From Lachnospiraceae bacterium UBA4317 (GTDB lineage Bacteria > Bacillota_A > Clostridia > Lachnospirales > Lachnospiraceae): 6,149 bases of DNA. The first letter of the stretch is position 1. Each line of letters starts with the position of its first letter. The stretch covers positions 1 to 6,149 of the forward strand of contig DGUF01000135.1 of NCBI GenBank assembly GCA_002394525.1, read 5' to 3'. Below are positions 1 to 5,917 of the stretch, one piece after another. The translations under genes and the position numbers were made by a program. Under the pieces are notes generated by a model. That model was not told the origin of the DNA and made no database searches. It was given only the letters and a program-made list of their open reading frames with translations.

Positions 1-498
1 AAGCTCCGCTGGATGAACGGCGAGTATCTCAAGGCCATGGATCCCGACGCGTTTTATGAACAGGCCGAGCCCTGGCTGAAAAAAGCCATCAGCAAGGACC
101 TGGATCTGAAGAAGATCGCGGAGATGGTCCGGACCCGCATCGAGATCTGGCCCGATATCCCGGATATGGTCTCCTTCTTCGAGACCCTGCCCGAATACGA
201 CAACGAGCTCTACCGCCACAAAAAGATGAAATCCACGCCCGAGACTGCCCTGACAGTCCTGCAGGAGGTCCTGCCCGTTCTGGAGGCCCAGGAGGTCTGG
301 ACCAACGAGGCCCTTTTTGACTCCCTCAAGGCCTTTATCCAGGAGAAGGGCTACAAGAACGGCTATGTCCTGTGGCCGGTCCGGATCGCCGTCTCAGGCA
401 GGAGCGTGACCCCCGCCGGGGCCACGGAGATCCTGGAGATCCTGGGCAGGGAGGAATCCCTGGCCAGAATGAAAAAATCCATCGCCCAGCTCAGCTGA
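1..498 (+). CDS. gltX: Glutamate--tRNA ligase (GltX), C-terminal part, 5' end cut by the window
   Basis: This is the last 165 residues of glutamyl-tRNA synthetase, the cytoplasmic class I enzyme that charges tRNA-Glu with glutamate. The reading frame is open from base 1 and begins with KLRWMNGEYL, the conserved segment that follows the KMSKS loop in GltX. The catalytic Rossmann domain and KMSKS motif therefore lie upstream of the window. The rest is the alpha-helical anticodon-binding region. It ends in the typical clostridial C-terminal block: KGYKNGYVLWPVRIAVSGR, then a TPAGATEILEILGREESL stretch (about residues 115-155 of the visible part). The usual GltX length is roughly 480-550 residues, so about a third is visible. 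The stop is TGA at 496-498. Nothing looks broken. The next gene starts 240 bases later on the same strand, after structured intergenic DNA, so cotranscription is not required. Whether it is discriminating or also charges tRNA-Gln cannot be told from this part. Confidence 0.95.
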   Translation, partial: KLRWMNGEYLKAMDPDAFYEQAEPWLKKAISKDLDLKKIAEMVRTRIEIWPDIPDMVSFFETLPEYDNELYRHKKMKSTPETALTVLQEVLPVLEAQEVWTNEALFDSLKAFIQEKGYKNGYVLWPVRIAVSGRSVTPAGATEILEILGREESLARMKKSIAQLS

Positions 499-637: not shown

Positions 638-665
638 TCTCATTCATGATTCAAGGATCTTTATT
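637..665 (+). promoter_or_regulatory. Weak candidate sigma-A promoter for the helicase gene
   Basis: TTCTCA (637-642, four of six matches to TTGACA) lies 17 bases before TTTATT (660-665, four of six matches to TATAAT) in a locally AT-richer stretch. It would start transcription near 672, giving a leader of roughly 65 bases that contains the 688-725 hairpin. A start there would exclude the ATG at 646 from the transcript. Both boxes are weak matches, so this is only a suggestion. Confidence 0.25.
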
Positions 666-687
666 CGTAAGCAGCAGAGGCAGGAGG

Positions 688-725
688 GTTACACTTCACG
701 CCCTCGACAGGGCGCGAACTGTAAC
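688..725 (+). promoter_or_regulatory. Long imperfect hairpin directly upstream of the helicase ribosome binding site
   Basis: GTTACA (688-693) pairs with TGTAAC (720-725), then TTC (695-697) with GAA (716-718), then CGCCCT (699-704) with AGGGCG (709-714), closed by the loop CGAC (705-708). This gives 15 base pairs with two single mismatches in 38 bases. It ends two bases before the Shine-Dalgarno AGGAGG at 728-733. A second AGGAGG (682-687) sits immediately on its 5' side with no start codon at a usable distance. The placement suggests a 5'-leader element acting on translation or mRNA stability, or a symmetric operator. It matches no riboswitch class I recognise. Confidence 0.55.
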
Positions 726-727
726 GC

Positions 728-733
728 AGGAGG
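728..733 (+). promoter_or_regulatory. Shine-Dalgarno deciding the helicase start at 739
   Basis: A perfect AGGAGG lies five bases before ATG 739. The in-frame ATG at 646 has no comparable site, and the 31 codons between have codon use unlike the gene body (TCT, TTA, GTA, ACA). This favours 739 as the true start. Confidence 0.8.
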
Positions 734-738
734 CAGTC

Positions 739-2838
739 ATGGGAGCTCCTTCCGGGGGATCGACATCCTCAAGGCCGGTCATTTCGAAACCGGTATCCTC
801 AACATCGATATCCAGTCCGTCAGGGTCCTCCCGGACGGAAAAGTCCTCCCTGGTCTCCGACGCGGCCCAGCAGGAGGCGATCCGCCACGGAAGGGGCCCC
901 TGCGCGGTCATTGCGGGCCCCGGCAGCGGCAAGACTCATGTACTGACCAGGCGGGTCTCCTGCCTGATCCAAGACCTTGGCGTAGATCCCCGCAGCATCC
1001 TTGTGATGACCTTTTCCCGCGCCGCCGCCTCGGAGATGAGAAAGCGGTTCACCCAGGGACAAGAGGCCGGGGCGGATGTCGTCTTCGGGACTTTCCACTC
1101 CGTTTTTTACAGGATCCTGCGGGAATCGTCAGGAGAGGAGCTCCGGATCATCAGCCAGGCGGAAAAGTACAGATACCTGCAGCATCTCTGCGGACTGCAC
1201 CCGGGCAGGCTCTTTCCCCGGGGACTGACCCCGGAAGGGCTCCAGCTCCTGATCAGCCGCAGCAAAAACGGCCTGCCCTGTCCACAGCCCTGGCTTCCCG
1301 GCCTGATCCGGGACTATGACCGCTACCTGCGGGACAAGGGCTGCCTGGATTTCGACGATATGATCCTGCTCTGCCAAAAGGTCCTCCGGGAGGATCCGGG
1401 CTTGCTTGCCTACTGGCGGTCCCGCTTTCAATGGTTTCTGGTCGACGAGTTCCAGGACGTGAGCCCGTCCCAGTATGAGACCCTCCGTCTGCTGGCCGCC
1501 CCCCTCAACAATCTCTTCGTCGTGGGAGATGACGACCAGTCCATCTACGGCTTCAGGGGGGCGGATGCCCTGACCCTCCAGCGCTTTCTGGACGACTACG
1601 GCCTGAACGGAAAAGACAGCGGCCTGGACGGAAAAGACCGCTTCCTGAATGGAAAAGACTGCAGCCCTGGTGGAAAAGACCTCAGCCTGAAAGGCGGAGA
1701 TTGCAGAGACCTGCGTGAGCAGAGGTCCGGCAGGATCCTGCTCACGACCAATTACCGCTGCGGCAGGACCATCCTGCAGGCCGGTGCCCGCCTGATCCGA
1801 GACAACAGGCAGCGGATCCCCAAAGACTTCCGACCGGGCTCCTCACGGCCGGGCAGCTTTGTCTGCAGGCCTTTTTCCGACAATGATTCCCAGTATGCCT
1901 TCCTGATGCAGGAGCTCAAGGCCATGCCGCCGGAAAACCTGTCCTCGACAGCGGTGATCTTCCGGAGCCATGGTCCCGCCCGTTCTTTTCTCCAGGTCCT
2001 GCAAAGGGAGGGAATCCCCTTTTTGACCGAAAAAAAGACTGTCTCCCCCAGGGTTCCCACCGCGGAAGGAAGGATCCTCGGAGACCTGGCCGCCTACTAC
2101 CGGGCTTCGGCCGGTCTGGCCCGCGGGGGCGCCGCCAGAAAGGACCTCCTGCGGATCATGAACTGTCCGGAGCGGTTCCTGTCGGGCAGTTTTTTGGAGG
2201 GAGACCTTTCCGGCGGGGGCGGGCTTGTGGCCGGAGCAGGCTATGAGGAGGAGACGGTCCGGGAGCTCGTGGACGACCTGGAGGTCCTCCAGTCTCTTTC
2301 CCCCGCCTTTTCCCTCCGCTATCTCCTGGACAATATGGGCTACCGGGCCTATGCCGCGAAGAGCTTTCAGGAGGGGGGAGCGGTCCTGGACCGTCTGGCC
2401 GGCCTGGCCCGGGGCTGCACAAGCCTGTCCGCCTGGCTGGGCCTTCTGGAGGACCTGTCGGGGGAGGCGGAAAGGGGAGCGGACCCCCGGACCCTTTTTG
2501 AAAGAGCCGGACAGGGCAGAAGAGAGGCGGAAGAGGGGCCGGATCCCGGCGGCAGCGGCCGGAAAAGGCCGGGGACCGGAGAGGGCGGTGTCCGGGTCCT
2601 GACCATGCATGCCTGCAAGGGGCTGGAATTTGATACGGTCTATATCCCGGGCCTCAACGAGGGCGTCCTGCCCGCCAGGCAGGCCTGGACCCTGGACCAG
2701 ATCGAGGAGGAGAGAAGGCTTTTATATGTCGCCATGACCAGAGCCAGACAGTCTCTGACCCTGACCTGGCTGGAGGGGACAAGAGACAGGCCCGCGGCCC
2801 CCTCCCGTTTCCTGAGACCCTTTATTGTACGAGTTTGA
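739..2838 (+). CDS. UvrD/PcrA-like superfamily 1 DNA helicase with repeat insertions
   Basis: This 699-residue protein is an ATP-dependent 3'-5' DNA helicase of the UvrD/Rep/PcrA family, acting in the cytoplasm on DNA repair or replication intermediates (role known for the family, not shown here). Residues are counted from ATG 739. Q-motif glutamines lie near 44-45, Walker A AGPGSGKT at 59-66, motif Ia near 87-100, and Ib GTFHS at 117-121. Walker B VDEFQD is at 235-240, motif III VGDDDQSIYGFRGA at 262-275, motif IV TTNYRC at 336-341, motif V VLTMHACKGLEFD at 619-631, and motif VI EEERRLLYVAMTRAR at 656-670. All expected ATPase residues are present. The protein stops about 30 residues after motif VI, so it lacks the C-terminal extension of full PcrA. 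Oddities are a Ser-rich N-terminus (16 Ser in the first 40 residues), a 21-bp repeat insert between motifs III and IV, and a disordered Gly/Glu/Arg-rich linker before motif V. An extended version from ATG 646 (730 residues) is possible but less likely. Confidence 0.93.
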   Translation: MGAPSGGSTSSRPVISKPVSSTSISSPSGSSRTEKSSLVSDAAQQEAIRHGRGPCAVIAGPGSGKTHVLTRRVSCLIQDLGVDPRSILVMTFSRAAASEMRKRFTQGQEAGADVVFGTFHSVFYRILRESSGEELRIISQAEKYRYLQHLCGLHPGRLFPRGLTPEGLQLLISRSKNGLPCPQPWLPGLIRDYDRYLRDKGCLDFDDMILLCQKVLREDPGLLAYWRSRFQWFLVDEFQDVSPSQYETLRLLAAPLNNLFVVGDDDQSIYGFRGADALTLQRFLDDYGLNGKDSGLDGKDRFLNGKDCSPGGKDLSLKGGDCRDLREQRSGRILLTTNYRCGRTILQAGARLIRDNRQRIPKDFRPGSSRPGSFVCRPFSDNDSQYAFLMQELKAMPPENLSSTAVIFRSHGPARSFLQVLQREGIPFLTEKKTVSPRVPTAEGRILGDLAAYYRASAGLARGGAARKDLLRIMNCPERFLSGSFLEGDLSGGGGLVAGAGYEEETVRELVDDLEVLQSLSPAFSLRYLLDNMGYRAYAAKSFQEGGAVLDRLAGLARGCTSLSAWLGLLEDLSGEAERGADPRTLFERAGQGRREAEEGPDPGGSGRKRPGTGEGGVRVLTMHACKGLEFDTVYIPGLNEGVLPARQAWTLDQIEEERRLLYVAMTRARQSLTLTWLEGTRDRPAAPSRFLRPFIVRV
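1600..1704 (+). repeat. Five 21-bp in-frame tandem repeats inside the helicase gene
   Basis: The units are 1600-1620, 1621-1641, 1642-1662, 1663-1683 and 1684-1704. They encode the heptapeptides GLNGKDS, GLDGKDR, FLNGKDC, SPGGKDL and SLKGGDC. The first three units are nearly identical around GGAAAAGAC, and the last is the most decayed. They sit between DDY (the end of the motif III region) and RILLTTNYR (motif IV), where standard PcrA/UvrD has only a short connection. The insert is hydrophilic and Gly/Lys/Asp-rich, probably a flexible surface loop at the 1A/2A boundary. Because the unit is a multiple of three, copy changes by slippage would keep the frame. Confidence 0.9.
2464..2549 (+). repeat. 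Imperfect direct duplication (60-bp period) in the helicase linker
   Basis: Bases 2464-2490 and 2524-2549 are an imperfect direct repeat. Both begin GAGGCGGAA and continue through a G-run to a GGAC/GGAT-CCCGG end. Spacing is 60 bases, so both copies are read in the same frame, giving EAERGADPR and EAEEGPDPG. They lie in a low-complexity, probably disordered linker between the 2B region and motif V of the helicase. Confidence 0.65.
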
Positions 2839-2973: not shown

Positions 2974-5187
2974 TTGACTTTTCAGTTTGAATATTCCCCG
3001 GCCCATGCCGTCATGCCCATGATCAGGGCACACGGAAACGGCATCGTATTCAGCACTGTATTTCACGAAAACGGTGAACATGGACTGCAGCTGATCCATG
3101 TTCCGGACGGAGAAACGGTGGACATAGCTCTCACAGAGGAATATCGCGTCGGTAAGGTATATTCTGTTTTTCTTTCCCCCTTTGACGCGGAGGAATGGCT
3201 CTACCGCTACCGTTGCGGTAACCGGTACGTGGTCGACCCCCATGCCTTTTCCGTCCGGAAGGCCCTGATCCGTGAAGAGGGGCGGGACAAGACCATCGCG
3301 GCCTGCAGCTGCGCGCCCGTCCGGGCGGACGGCTTCTTTCCCGGGGCTCCCGAGCGCCCGCTGCCCCCCGCAGACTGGACGAAACAGGTGATCTACGGGC
3401 TTCATGTCAAGGGCTTTACCGCTCAGCTGCCTGAGGCTCAGGACCTGCGCGGCACCTTCGCGGGCGTCATCTCCAGGATCCCCTATCTGAAAGACCTGGG
3501 GATCACGGCCGTCGAGCTCATGCCTGTCTACAGGCCGCTCCCGGGGCTGCGCAAAAAGAAGACCTTCCGCACCATGCAGGAGGCGCTGGGCGCCTGGCCC
3601 GTCGGCCCCCAGGGGGATCCCCTCCGGGATATGAAGGAACGACCCAATTACTGGGGCTTCGGCAGGGGCCTCTATTTCGCCCTGCGGCCCGAATTCGGCA
3701 GTCAGAAGGACTTCGCCCTCATGGTCCATGCCCTTCACGAGGCCGGGATCCGGGTCCTGCTGCAGATCTTCTTTGAAAAGGGAGTCACGGCCGCCGAGCA
3801 GCTCTTTGTCCTTCGCTATTATATTGACCGCTTCGGGATAGACGGCTTCCGCCTGCTGGGAAATGTGGAGCTGGCCTCCTCCCTGGCGTCCGCCCCTTCC
3901 CTGGCGGATACGGCCCTCCTGTGCAGCTCCTTCCCCTTCAGGGAATTTGAGGACCAGGAGGAAGCGGAGAGGCTTCTCTATGAGGAGGACATCGACAGCC
4001 TCTTTGGGTGTGCGCAGACTGAAGAGGGGCACCCGGGTACAGGCCCTGCCGGCCCCGGTTTTCCCGTGCGGATCGCCGCCCAGTCAGGGGCCGCCTCCCG
4101 CGAACAGGCCTCCTTCCCCACGCTGATCACCTGCGGGGAGGACTTCCAGACCCTGCTGCGCCGCTTTGTCAAGAGCGACGACTACGTGCTCAAGGATTTC
4201 CTCAAGCTCTTTTTGAGCGTTCCGGAGGAGCACGGCTTCCTGCGCAGCGTGACGGGCTACGAGGGCTTCACGCTGGCCGACCTGGTCTCCTACAGCGAGA
4301 GACACAACCAGGCCAACGGGGAATTCGGCCTGGACGGCCGCGCCGACAACTACAGCTGGAACTGCGGCGAGGAGGGGCCTTCCGACGACCCTCAGGTCCT
4401 GGCCCTTCGCAGAAAACAGGTCCGCAACTTCCTGACCCTCCTCCTCCTGGCCCAGGGGACACCCATGCTGCGCCAGGGTGACGAGCGCTGCAACAGCCAG
4501 GAGGGCAACAACAACCCCTACTGCCAGGACAACGAGATCTCCTGGATCGACTGGACGGAGGACCCGGAAAAGAAGGCCCTGACTGCCTTCACCGCCAGGA
4601 TTATCGCCTTCCGCAAAGACCATCCCGTCTTCCGGAGCCGCCGCCCCTTTCAGTACATCGATTACCGGGGCATGGGCCATCCGGATGTCTCCCTCCACGG
4701 GGAGGAGGCCTGGAAGCCCGACCTGGGGGAATTCAGCCACAGCGTCGGCATCGCCTTCTGTGAAAATTACGCACAGGAGATGCAGGATCAGGACAGGCGC
4801 CGGGCAAATCAGCCCCTGTCCTTCACCTATGTCGCCCTGAATATGTACTGGAAAGAACTCTCCCTGGCCCTGCCCAAGCTCCCTCCCCACTATGTCTGGA
4901 AGGTCTTTATGGACACGGCCGCGGAAGAGGGCTTCCTGGACCGGCCCCTCACTCCGGCGGACCAGCACAGCGTGGATGTCGTCCCCAGATCGATCCGGCT
5001 CCTGCGGGCTGTACCGGATATTGATTCCATCCTGCGGGAAAGAAAAAAGGAAAAACTGAGGACTCTTCCCCCGGTCGGGGCCGTCCGCAGGGATCTGAAA
5101 AGAGGAAAGGGCGGCAAGAGTGGGAAAAAATATCCCCGCCGCGTCCTCCGGCTCATCAACCTGCCCGCCGCAGACCGGTCCCGCTGA
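2974..5187 (+). CDS. GlgX/isoamylase-like GH13 family protein with lost catalytic residues (probable pseudoenzyme)
   Basis: This 737-residue protein (from TTG 2974) looks like a glycogen-debranching enzyme of the GlgX/isoamylase branch of GH13. Those enzymes hydrolyse alpha-1,6 branches in glycogen-like glucans in the cytoplasm. No signal peptide is visible. Residues about 10-95 resemble a CBM48-like beta domain, and the barrel starts near QVIYGLHVKGFT (about 138-149). Scaffold signatures are well kept: GITAVELMPV (176-185), NYWGFG (225-230), NYSWNCGEEG (459-468), RNFLTLLLLAQGTPML (484-499) and YCQDNEISWIDW (516-527). The catalytic regions are not. In region I, the DVVYNH positions read QIFFEK (264-269). 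In region II, GFRFD reads GFRLL, with Leu295 for the nucleophile Asp. In region IV, HDGFTL reads YEGFTL (Tyr429, Glu430). Region III is too divergent to align with certainty (ITCGED, about 385-390). The last 50 residues are highly basic (19 Lys/Arg). Hydrolysis seems unlikely; a glucan-binding or regulatory role is inference. The stop is TGA at 5185-5187. Confidence 0.85.
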   Translation: MTFQFEYSPAHAVMPMIRAHGNGIVFSTVFHENGEHGLQLIHVPDGETVDIALTEEYRVGKVYSVFLSPFDAEEWLYRYRCGNRYVVDPHAFSVRKALIREEGRDKTIAACSCAPVRADGFFPGAPERPLPPADWTKQVIYGLHVKGFTAQLPEAQDLRGTFAGVISRIPYLKDLGITAVELMPVYRPLPGLRKKKTFRTMQEALGAWPVGPQGDPLRDMKERPNYWGFGRGLYFALRPEFGSQKDFALMVHALHEAGIRVLLQIFFEKGVTAAEQLFVLRYYIDRFGIDGFRLLGNVELASSLASAPSLADTALLCSSFPFREFEDQEEAERLLYEEDIDSLFGCAQTEEGHPGTGPAGPGFPVRIAAQSGAASREQASFPTLITCGEDFQTLLRRFVKSDDYVLKDFLKLFLSVPEEHGFLRSVTGYEGFTLADLVSYSERHNQANGEFGLDGRADNYSWNCGEEGPSDDPQVLALRRKQVRNFLTLLLLAQGTPMLRQGDERCNSQEGNNNPYCQDNEISWIDWTEDPEKKALTAFTARIIAFRKDHPVFRSRRPFQYIDYRGMGHPDVSLHGEEAWKPDLGEFSHSVGIAFCENYAQEMQDQDRRRANQPLSFTYVALNMYWKELSLALPKLPPHYVWKVFMDTAAEEGFLDRPLTPADQHSVDVVPRSIRLLRAVPDIDSILRERKKEKLRTLPPVGAVRRDLKRGKGGKSGKKYPRRVLRLINLPAADRSR

Positions 5188-5284: not shown

Positions 5285-5917
5285 ATGAACAAGGAAAACA
5301 TGGTCACTCCCGCTCCGGATTCTCAGGTCCGCATGTACACGGGCAGGATCTCCGGCCACAGGCGGACGCCCATCACCTGGGAGAAGTTTCTGGCCCATCT
5401 GAAGACGATCACCTACCACAAGCTCCTGGTCTTTGAGGGCTGCTGGAAAGTAGGCCTCTACCGTCAGGGGATCATGCATGACCTGTCCAAGTATTCCCCG
5501 ACGGAATTTATGGTCGGCGCCCGCTATTATCAGGGGGATCGCAGCCCCAACAACGCGGAGCGGGAGGAACTGGGCTATTCCAGCTCCTGGCTCCACCACA
5601 AGGGCCGCAACCGCCATCATTTTGAATACTGGGTGGACTACAATTTCCGCGGAAAGGAAGAGGCGTCCCCCCTGGTCCCGGTCAAGATGCCGGGCCGCTA
5701 CGTGGTCGAAATGCTGATGGACCGGATCGCGGCCTGCAAGACCTATCTGGGCGAGTCCTATACGGATGACGCCCCGCTCAATTATTTCAGCGGCGGCCGG
5801 GCCCGCAAATTCATGCATCCCGAGACCGCGGCCCTCCTGGAGCAGCTGCTGCGCATGCTGGCCGAAAGGGGAGAGGACTACACATTTGCCTATATCAGAA
5901 GCAAGTTGTCCAAGTGA
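5285..5917 (+). CDS. DUF5662-type protein, function unknown
   Basis: This 210-residue cytoplasmic protein has no signal peptide or membrane segment. The pattern matches my recollection of the DUF5662 family found in Firmicutes, whose activity is not known to me. Conserved-looking features are the helix FLAHLKTITYHKLLVF (35-50), GIMHDLSKYSPTEF (62-75), WLHHKGRNRHHFEYW (102-116), a PGRYVVEMLMDRIAACKTYLG segment (136-156), and a C-terminal HPETAALLEQLLRML helix (178-192). The clustered residues His45, His65-Asp66, His104-His105, His111-His112 and Asp146 look like a metal-binding site reminiscent of HD-type phosphohydrolases; that comparison is inference. The first 25 or so residues are variable in character and may start at Met7 instead. 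It follows a terminator-like hairpin, so it may begin a new transcript, though I found no clear promoter. The next gene starts two bases after its stop, implying translational coupling. Confidence 0.8.
   Translation: MNKENMVTPAPDSQVRMYTGRISGHRRTPITWEKFLAHLKTITYHKLLVFEGCWKVGLYRQGIMHDLSKYSPTEFMVGARYYQGDRSPNNAEREELGYSSSWLHHKGRNRHHFEYWVDYNFRGKEEASPLVPVKMPGRYVVEMLMDRIAACKTYLGESYTDDAPLNYFSGGRARKFMHPETAALLEQLLRMLAERGEDYTFAYIRSKLSK

Follow-up and report, generated by a model that had tools for sequence, protein, structure and literature searches.

Inactive relatives of alpha-glucan enzymes with suggested regulatory roles have precedents in GlgD and in BAM4 and BAM9, which belong to other protein families and are not isoamylase relatives. 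GlgC is named the catalytic subunit beside GlgD in one survey (PMC10395257), and BAM4 and BAM9 appear in another source as inactive beta-amylases with suggested regulatory roles (PMC12892837). Closer still are the GlgX and TreX enzymes (TIGR02100, GH13_11) and the plant isoamylases, among them the non-catalytic ISA2: at least four of five catalytic residues vary in every ISA2 examined, and the protein is retained as a partner of ISA1 despite this loss and is proposed to affect whether the glucan ends up soluble or crystalline (PMC12510319). Here we describe a GlgX-like gene (2974..5187) in a stretch of 6,149 nucleotides from Lachnospiraceae bacterium UBA4317 (contig DGUF01000135.1), the whole of which we call the window. 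We propose, with a probability of about 0.55, that the gene belongs to a large Lachnospiraceae family of non-catalytic proteins of GlgX/isoamylase type (GH13_11-like) that bind alpha-glucan and serve as a sensor or scaffold.

The gene, like all features given below, lies on the forward strand. It probably starts at TTG 2974 and stops at 5187 (737 residues; AGGAGG at 2961-2966), a start that agrees with the length of database protein P0002 (737 residues; 99% identity over 96% of the window's protein) and with the N-termini of the homologues P0004 and P0012. An alternative ATG at 2890 would add 28 residues, and residue numbers follow this 765-residue form. A first-pass annotation of the DNA had proposed a probable pseudoenzyme at 3754..4275, which covers the catalytic part only and not the whole gene. 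Its residue assignments were reproduced by translation and homologue alignment: the region I Asp and His are Gln292 (3763-3765) and Lys297 (3778-3780), the nucleophile is Leu323 (CTG, 3856-3858) and the His-Asp pair of region IV is Tyr457-Glu458 (4258..4263). The scaffold motifs that it had recognized are likewise in place, namely NYWGF (253-257), NYSWNCG (487-493), QGTPML (522-527) and YCQDNEISW (544-552). Its observation on catalytic loss was correct, and even understated, as two features had been overlooked: the region III acid/base Glu is also lost (Ser346, AGC, 3925-3927, in a remnant at 3913..3936), and about 44 residues are gone between regions I and II, from a place at 3781..3840. What remains on either side is Q-I-F-F-E-K (3763..3780), where GlgX has D-V-V-F/Y-N-H, and D-G-F-R-L-L-G (3841..3861), and the spacing from 292 to 323 inclusive is 32 residues vs. 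76-78 in 39 relatives with normal spacing.

All four classical GH13 regions are thus broken in the window protein. Where GlgX has an Asp nucleophile, a Glu acid/base and a third Asp, this protein has Leu323, Ser346 and Glu458, and it also differs from GlgX and TreX in having neither the region I nor the region IV His. The ISA2 pattern, in which the nucleophile and at least four of the five catalytic residues are lost, is exceeded here, where all are lost. With these substitutions the window protein is almost certainly not a GH13 hydrolase.

The loss is not a peculiarity of this copy. A protein search with the window protein scored 7992 candidates and yielded 4790 relatives at E <= 0.001; 118 sequences of at least 580 residues, drawn from the best 120 of these and the window's own protein, were aligned, and in all 118 the region I-II spacing is short, with none combining Asp323 with Glu346. 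A lone degenerate copy, which would have argued against a pseudoenzyme, is ruled out by this family-wide loss (in the 118 aligned sequences and in 47 sampled members described below), and the pseudoenzyme interpretation is supported for the sampled family. In a scan of one genome per species the spacing is 31 or 32 residues in 41 loci and 76-78 in 39, a split that is no measure of frequency because only the best 80 of 593 loci were kept. The 41 short-spacing loci are labelled as Lachnospiraceae, as genera usually put there, or with the broader names Clostridia, Eubacteriales, Bacillota, Clostridium sp. chh4-2, Bacterium D16-36 and uncultured bacterium. The 39 normal-spacing loci span Bacteroidota, cyanobacteria, Actinomycetota, Pseudomonadota and Bacillota (Lachnospiraceae included) and retain the catalytic residues (region IV is unreadable in L031). 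In an enlarged set of 94 short-spacing and 44 normal-spacing sequences, classified by spacing and not by residue identity, nucleophile and acid/base are both present in all 44 of the latter, which are monophyletic (support 1.0) in an approximate maximum-likelihood tree of the 138 sequences, so that a single branch divides the two sets; the order of events is uncertain because branches are long and the midpoint root falls inside the short-spacing set. Counts exclude the partial L128 and the fragments L182 and L183 of genome G043, and those based on 82 sequences also exclude L001, L002 and L008, which duplicate other loci. In one shorter sub-branch (L131-L136, 562-584 residues) regions I-III have diverged further, with the beta7/beta8 part still matching.

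We then sampled 60 genomes, some of them drafts, from the family to which a Butyrivibrio genome belongs (Lachnospiraceae in the NCBI taxonomy). A short-spacing member is present in 47 of them, in each case with a spacing of 31 or 32 residues and a single stop-free frame; in 46 of the 47 the match to the model begins no later than position 40 and ends no earlier than 600, and in L138 it spans 49 to 628. Asp323 is absent from 46 members, and the one that has it (L135) carries Arg346 and hence no acid/base, while Glu occurs at 292 in 35, Glu346 in 6 and Asp458 in 11. Gln in region I, found in 114 of the 118 closer relatives, is therefore no family hallmark, as Glu is the commoner residue in this wider sample. 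Judged from these alignments, the nucleophile (with that one exception) and the loop between regions I and II are lost across the family, and the other catalytic residues in most members, while the beta7 and beta8 loops have been kept. The first-pass annotation had asked whether orthologs share the replacement residues: the catalytic loss is family-wide, but the replacements vary between branches. It had also allowed for other acids taking over in the active site, and no other family-wide carboxylate occurs at the catalytic positions. Nor is there a sign of a relocated catalytic center among the eight acids that at least 97% of the 82 family loci share (D318, D464, E478, D482, E495, D531, E532 and D547): six of these belong to the beta7/beta8 loops, E478 corresponds to an outer-sugar contact, and the other seven vary little or not at all across 37 normal-spacing GlgX proteins.

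In the genus of G001, the genome nearest to the window (locus L001), 30 of 31 genomes have a match, of which 29 are readable, all with short spacing, and one is partial. In a class-level sample of 291 genomes, judged by match shape with at most four candidates scored per genome, 14 have a match and 8 an uninterrupted one of the family type (2 of these genomes also being in the 60-genome sample). Another order, that of an Acutalibacter genome and distinct from Lachnospirales, contributed 197 genomes; nine of these matched (at most six candidates scored in each), none with the family-type shape. As far as these samples reach, the family is all but restricted to Lachnospiraceae, which fits a tentative suggestion in the first-pass annotation that such proteins occur there. 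That annotation had also held that the gene is not decaying. Pairwise Nei-Gojobori ratios of nonsynonymous to synonymous substitution rates (dN/dS), taken from family pairs that do not involve the window (whose nearest DNA relative is too distant) and with many distant pairs saturated, were 0.168 (at a synonymous rate, dS, of 0.04), 0.067 (dS 0.40), 0.088 (dS 1.04) and 0.116 and 0.140 (dS about 1.6), compared with 0.114 (dS 0.19) for the closest normal-spacing pair. With most close pairs at 0.07-0.17, these values indicate purifying selection of ordinary strength. A degenerating gene, whether pseudogene or assembly error, could draw on the long branches; it is already refuted, and we discount it entirely, in view of the 47 intact frames, the purifying selection and the shared deletion, and chance or a sequencing or assembly error is ruled out by the short spacing common to all 47 members together with the 99%-identical P0002.

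The loss is lopsided. When positions found in at least 95% of the 44 normal-spacing homologues are taken as invariant, and those present in at least 80% of the 82 non-duplicate family loci as kept, the family keeps 7 of 44 invariant positions around regions I-III and beta5-beta6 (region I block, 3/12; region II block, 3/12; region III block, 0/8; beta5-beta6, 1/12) vs. all 25 of those in the loops after beta7 and beta8 (beta7-alpha7 loop, 13/13; beta8 loop, 12/12). Elsewhere the figures are 3/10 for the N-terminal domain, 12/19 for beta1-beta2, 4/10 for the region IV block, 5/8 for alpha7-beta8, 1/1 for the stretch after the beta8 loop and 5/5 for the C-terminal domain. Sixteen more invariant columns are absent from the window protein, and 15 of them occur in no more than about 1% of the loci. 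The window protein matches 24 of the 25 loop positions: 12 of 13 in the beta7-alpha7 loop (residues 469-500, HNQANGE..DG..NYSWNCGEEG, 4294..4389), with Arg for Lys at 471, and 12 of 12 in the beta8 loop (residues 530-556, GDE..GNNNPYCQDNEISW, 4477..4557).

In Streptomyces GlgX these loops hold contacts to the outer sugars. The contacts described for Streptomyces venezuelae GlgX with acarbose are Trp222, Tyr224, His271, Asp342, Glu378, Trp380 and His449 at the -1 sugar and Arg212, Glu470, Asn534 and Tyr536 at the other sugars (PMC9530166); a streptomycete GlgX in our alignment (L080) carries these contacts at the same numbers, plus or minus one, Arg212 aside. The positions of His271, Asp342, Glu378 and His449 are mostly substituted in the family, and at that of Trp380, 43 of 82 loci have Phe and 13 have Trp. 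Among the 47 members, by comparison, Trp222 is retained in 47, Tyr224 (as Tyr or Phe) in 47, Glu470 in 45, Asn534 in 47 and Tyr536 (as Tyr or Trp) in 47. In the window protein the two subsite -1 contacts that survive lie in Trp255-Gly256-Phe257 (3652..3660), and the outer-sugar contacts are Glu478 (4321-4323) in the beta7-alpha7 loop and Asn542 (4513-4515) and Tyr544 (4519-4521) in the beta8 loop, corresponding to GlgX Glu470, Asn534 and Tyr536. From the retained contacts we infer binding of the outer part of a glucan chain, which we regard as reasonably likely to have been preserved; they lend indirect support to the glucan binding that the first-pass annotation had suggested as one possible role, beside regulation of glycogen enzymes. 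In a cleft that has lost its cutting half but kept its outer-sugar half, an alpha-1,4/1,6-glucan (glycogen, limit dextrin or maltodextrin) would be bound and left uncleaved; the protein could then act as a glucan sensor or scaffold that either shields branch ends or offers chains to synthesis, branching or phosphorylase enzymes, and pairing with an active GlgX would not be required. That this amounts to a regulatory or scaffold role in glycogen metabolism is a tentative proposal, to which we give slightly less than even odds.

An AlphaFold2 model of the window protein, built on a 58-sequence alignment (mean per-residue confidence, pLDDT, 84; predicted template modeling score, pTM, 0.85), has the three-domain isoamylase-type fold, and its best matches among solved structures are ISA1, GlgX and TreX, with ISA1-ISA2 complexes among the top ones. 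Profile searches place the family near TreX, S. venezuelae GlgX and ISA1 (E 1e-110 to 7e-98), then E. coli GlgX (4e-83) and ISA2 (9e-51 and 2e-49); the family itself appears to be unsolved, because no solved structure is closer than TreX/GlgX by sequence profile. The N-terminal beta-sandwich (2989..3309, approximately residues 34-140 by the secondary structure of the model, within a GlgX/ISA1 alignment over residues 33-711) occupies the place of the domain that is named CBM48 in GlgX and isoamylase (PMC12510319). Pfam gives only a partial match to the Alpha-amylase model (46 bits, residues 185-293), and the best NCBIfam model, glgX_debranch (TIGR02100), scores 273.4 bits, under its curated cut-off of 640.9; this is weak evidence on its own because the cut-off is also missed by 10 of the 19 GlgX matches found across the 60 Lachnospiraceae genomes.

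Those 19 GlgX matches, each in a different genome, bear on the relation of the family to active debranching enzymes. Sixteen genomes have both proteins, 31 the non-catalytic family alone, 3 GlgX alone and 10 neither, without association (Fisher p 0.52). A bacterial ISA2 in the strict sense, a dedicated non-catalytic subunit that forms hetero-oligomers with active GlgX and tunes it, would have the plant protein as its model, the 16 co-occurrences among 47 carriers as its opportunity and the ISA1-ISA2 complexes among its structural matches. The 31 carriers in which no TIGR02100 match was found (some genomes being drafts) make such an obligate partnership distinctly unlikely, and no second GlgX-like open reading frame (ORF) lies in the flanking DNA, examined for up to 8 kb, around the window or the 41 loci, the family cluster comprising 42 ORFs in 42 loci.

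A type I pullulanase (TIGR02104) is present over cut-off in 15 of the 60 genomes and GDE_C (PF06202) in 13, and 21 genomes carry the non-catalytic family with neither of these nor GlgX (TIGR02100 at E <= 1e-100, TIGR02104 at its curated cut-off, PF06202 at E <= 1e-10), a figure that covers these three debranchers and to which incomplete drafts may contribute. Glycogen synthase (GlgA) is found in all 21 and a phosphorylase match in 20 (one partial); G011, one of the 21, has a pullulanase match below the cut-off, and G009, G010, G014, G019 and G021 are among those with glycogen synthase and no recognized debrancher. The gap might seem to call for a family that is active after all, through a non-canonical mechanism or substrate such as transfer or phosphorolysis, and the acids that persist in some members (Glu292, Glu346 and Asp458) could be cited in its favor. 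We consider this very improbable, since no catalytic position holds a carboxylate throughout the family, the window protein has Gln292, Leu323 and Ser346, the region I-II loop is missing and the gap itself leaves room for other GH13, GH31 or GH77 enzymes and for missing pieces of draft genomes. Two side observations concern the same pathway. Genomes with at least two phosphorylase matches number 33 among the 47 carriers vs. 1 among the 13 non-carriers, which shared ancestry may explain. Two glgX homologues are recorded for Blautia obeum in a survey (PMC10395257), and one of them might belong to the non-catalytic family.

On the best reading, the protein would work most like plant ISA2, as a non-catalytic, glucan-binding isoamylase. 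Both are GH13_11 paralogues that have lost the nucleophile and most catalytic residues under maintained selection, but ISA2 has an extra N-terminal beta-sandwich and pairs with ISA1 (PMC12510319), whereas the window model starts with one beta-sandwich, at residue 34, and most carriers show no active GlgX. The same paper puts ISA2 in the ISA clade of plants and algae (plus Chlamydiae) and separates it from other eubacterial GlgX, and this placement, together with the Lachnospiraceae range found here, suggests an independent loss. By profile score the family is nearer to TreX, S. venezuelae GlgX and ISA1 than to ISA2, but ISA2 evolves fast. A more specific version, in which the family is a partner-free bacterial counterpart of ISA2 whose beta7/beta8 loops, conserved but unanchored, become ordered on glucan, or on an enzyme that supplies the missing loop, and which shapes branch pattern, granule state or glycogen mobilization in gut and rumen bacteria (many of them with no recognized debrancher), strikes us as rather doubtful. 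Another comparison is with S. venezuelae GlgX, which is activated by cyclic di-GMP and resembles the family in fold and outer-sugar contacts. The window protein has Arg585 at the position of its cyclic di-GMP residue Arg579, but Arg occurs there in just 14 of 82 family loci, and the Arg438 stretch is shorter (12 residues between aligned ends vs. 20 in L080) and unalignable. The N-terminal residues Glu47, Arg49 and Arg56 also belong to the cyclic di-GMP set of the Streptomyces enzyme; at the two sites compared, control as in Streptomyces GlgX finds no support, and binding of cyclic di-GMP by the family seems unlikely. In the open literature searched (titles and the beginnings of abstracts) we found no description of a non-catalytic GlgX-like family in Lachnospiraceae.

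Upstream of the gene lie the 3' part of gltX (glutamate-tRNA ligase, 1..498) and a UvrD/Rep-like helicase gene (646..2838), and downstream a DUF5662 (PF18907) gene (5285..5917). By tblastn, in loci taken from the best 80 of 593 and some of them on short contigs, these neighbors recur at 15, 17 and 25 of the 41 family loci, respectively, and at none of the 39 normal-spacing GlgX loci; DUF1292 (19/41) and TraX (8/41) are likewise restricted to the family loci. This common neighborhood supports one orthologous family, yet provides no link to a glg cluster. In at least 15 of the 41 loci the DUF5662 gene overlaps the family gene or begins no more than 30 bp after it, and this recurrent proximity and the dismantled catalytic cleft speak for a fold recruited away from glucan, for example one that serves the DUF5662 protein as a protein-protein or nucleotide-binding partner. 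We think this unlikely, as the beta7/beta8 loops and outer-sugar contacts are the best-preserved part of the barrel and a DUF5662 match is absent from 16 of the 41 loci (some on short contigs). Inspected by eye, the His/Asp-rich pattern of the DUF5662 protein (HDLSK ... HHKGRNRHHFEYW) looks like that of an HD-type hydrolase. DUF5662 is not mentioned in the open literature searched. The UvrD/Rep-like ORF has no equivalog-level match (best PcrA, 271 bits vs. a cut-off of 911) and contains a repetitive insertion (1609-1680) with G-K-D every seven residues, at 322, 329, 336 and 343.

Several observations weigh against a glucan-binding sensor or scaffold. Subsite -1, the site of the catalytic residues, is mostly lost; Arg212, the fourth outer-sugar contact of GlgX, falls in a region that is unalignable in the family, and Glu470 is Trp in 18 of the 44 normal-spacing homologues, so that this contact is not universal. 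The N-terminal domain, a possible glucan-binding module, is among the poorly conserved parts, and the residues that stand in for the catalytic ones differ between family branches. The conserved loops are themselves poorly placed in the model (pLDDT 41-57 in blocks of 471-500, with 41 at 481-490, and 51 at 541-550), whereas the matching stretches of a control, a normal-spacing Lachnospiraceae GlgX modeled with 37 sequences, reach 66-92 and 83; the region I-II loop may have been what these loops packed against, so that they would now become ordered on a ligand or partner, but the low confidence can also be a modeling artefact. One family pair has a dN/dS of 0.396, at a dS of only 0.02 and with few changes. 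Among the 10 neighbor representatives from family loci that were annotated by Pfam, out of a much larger number of neighbor clusters, none is a glycogen enzyme, and no glg cluster was seen. The presence of GlgA and phosphorylase beside the family is uninformative because both are near-universal in the 60 genomes (59 and 58, respectively), and the 10 genomes with neither the family nor GlgX still have GlgA.

Non-catalytic isoamylases are known from plants; here, both catalysis and the region I-II loop are gone from a bacterial lineage that has kept outer-sugar contacts. In a dominant gut family the non-catalytic proteins outnumber active-type GlgX, with 47 vs. 19 of 60 genomes. The family homologue P0012 is annotated as an alpha-amylase family hydrolase; annotation by similarity can thus label members of the family as hydrolases, and counts of glycogen pathways in gut bacteria may be inflated as a result. 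The 21 of 60 genomes that carry the family and no recognized debrancher pose a concrete question that can be tested.

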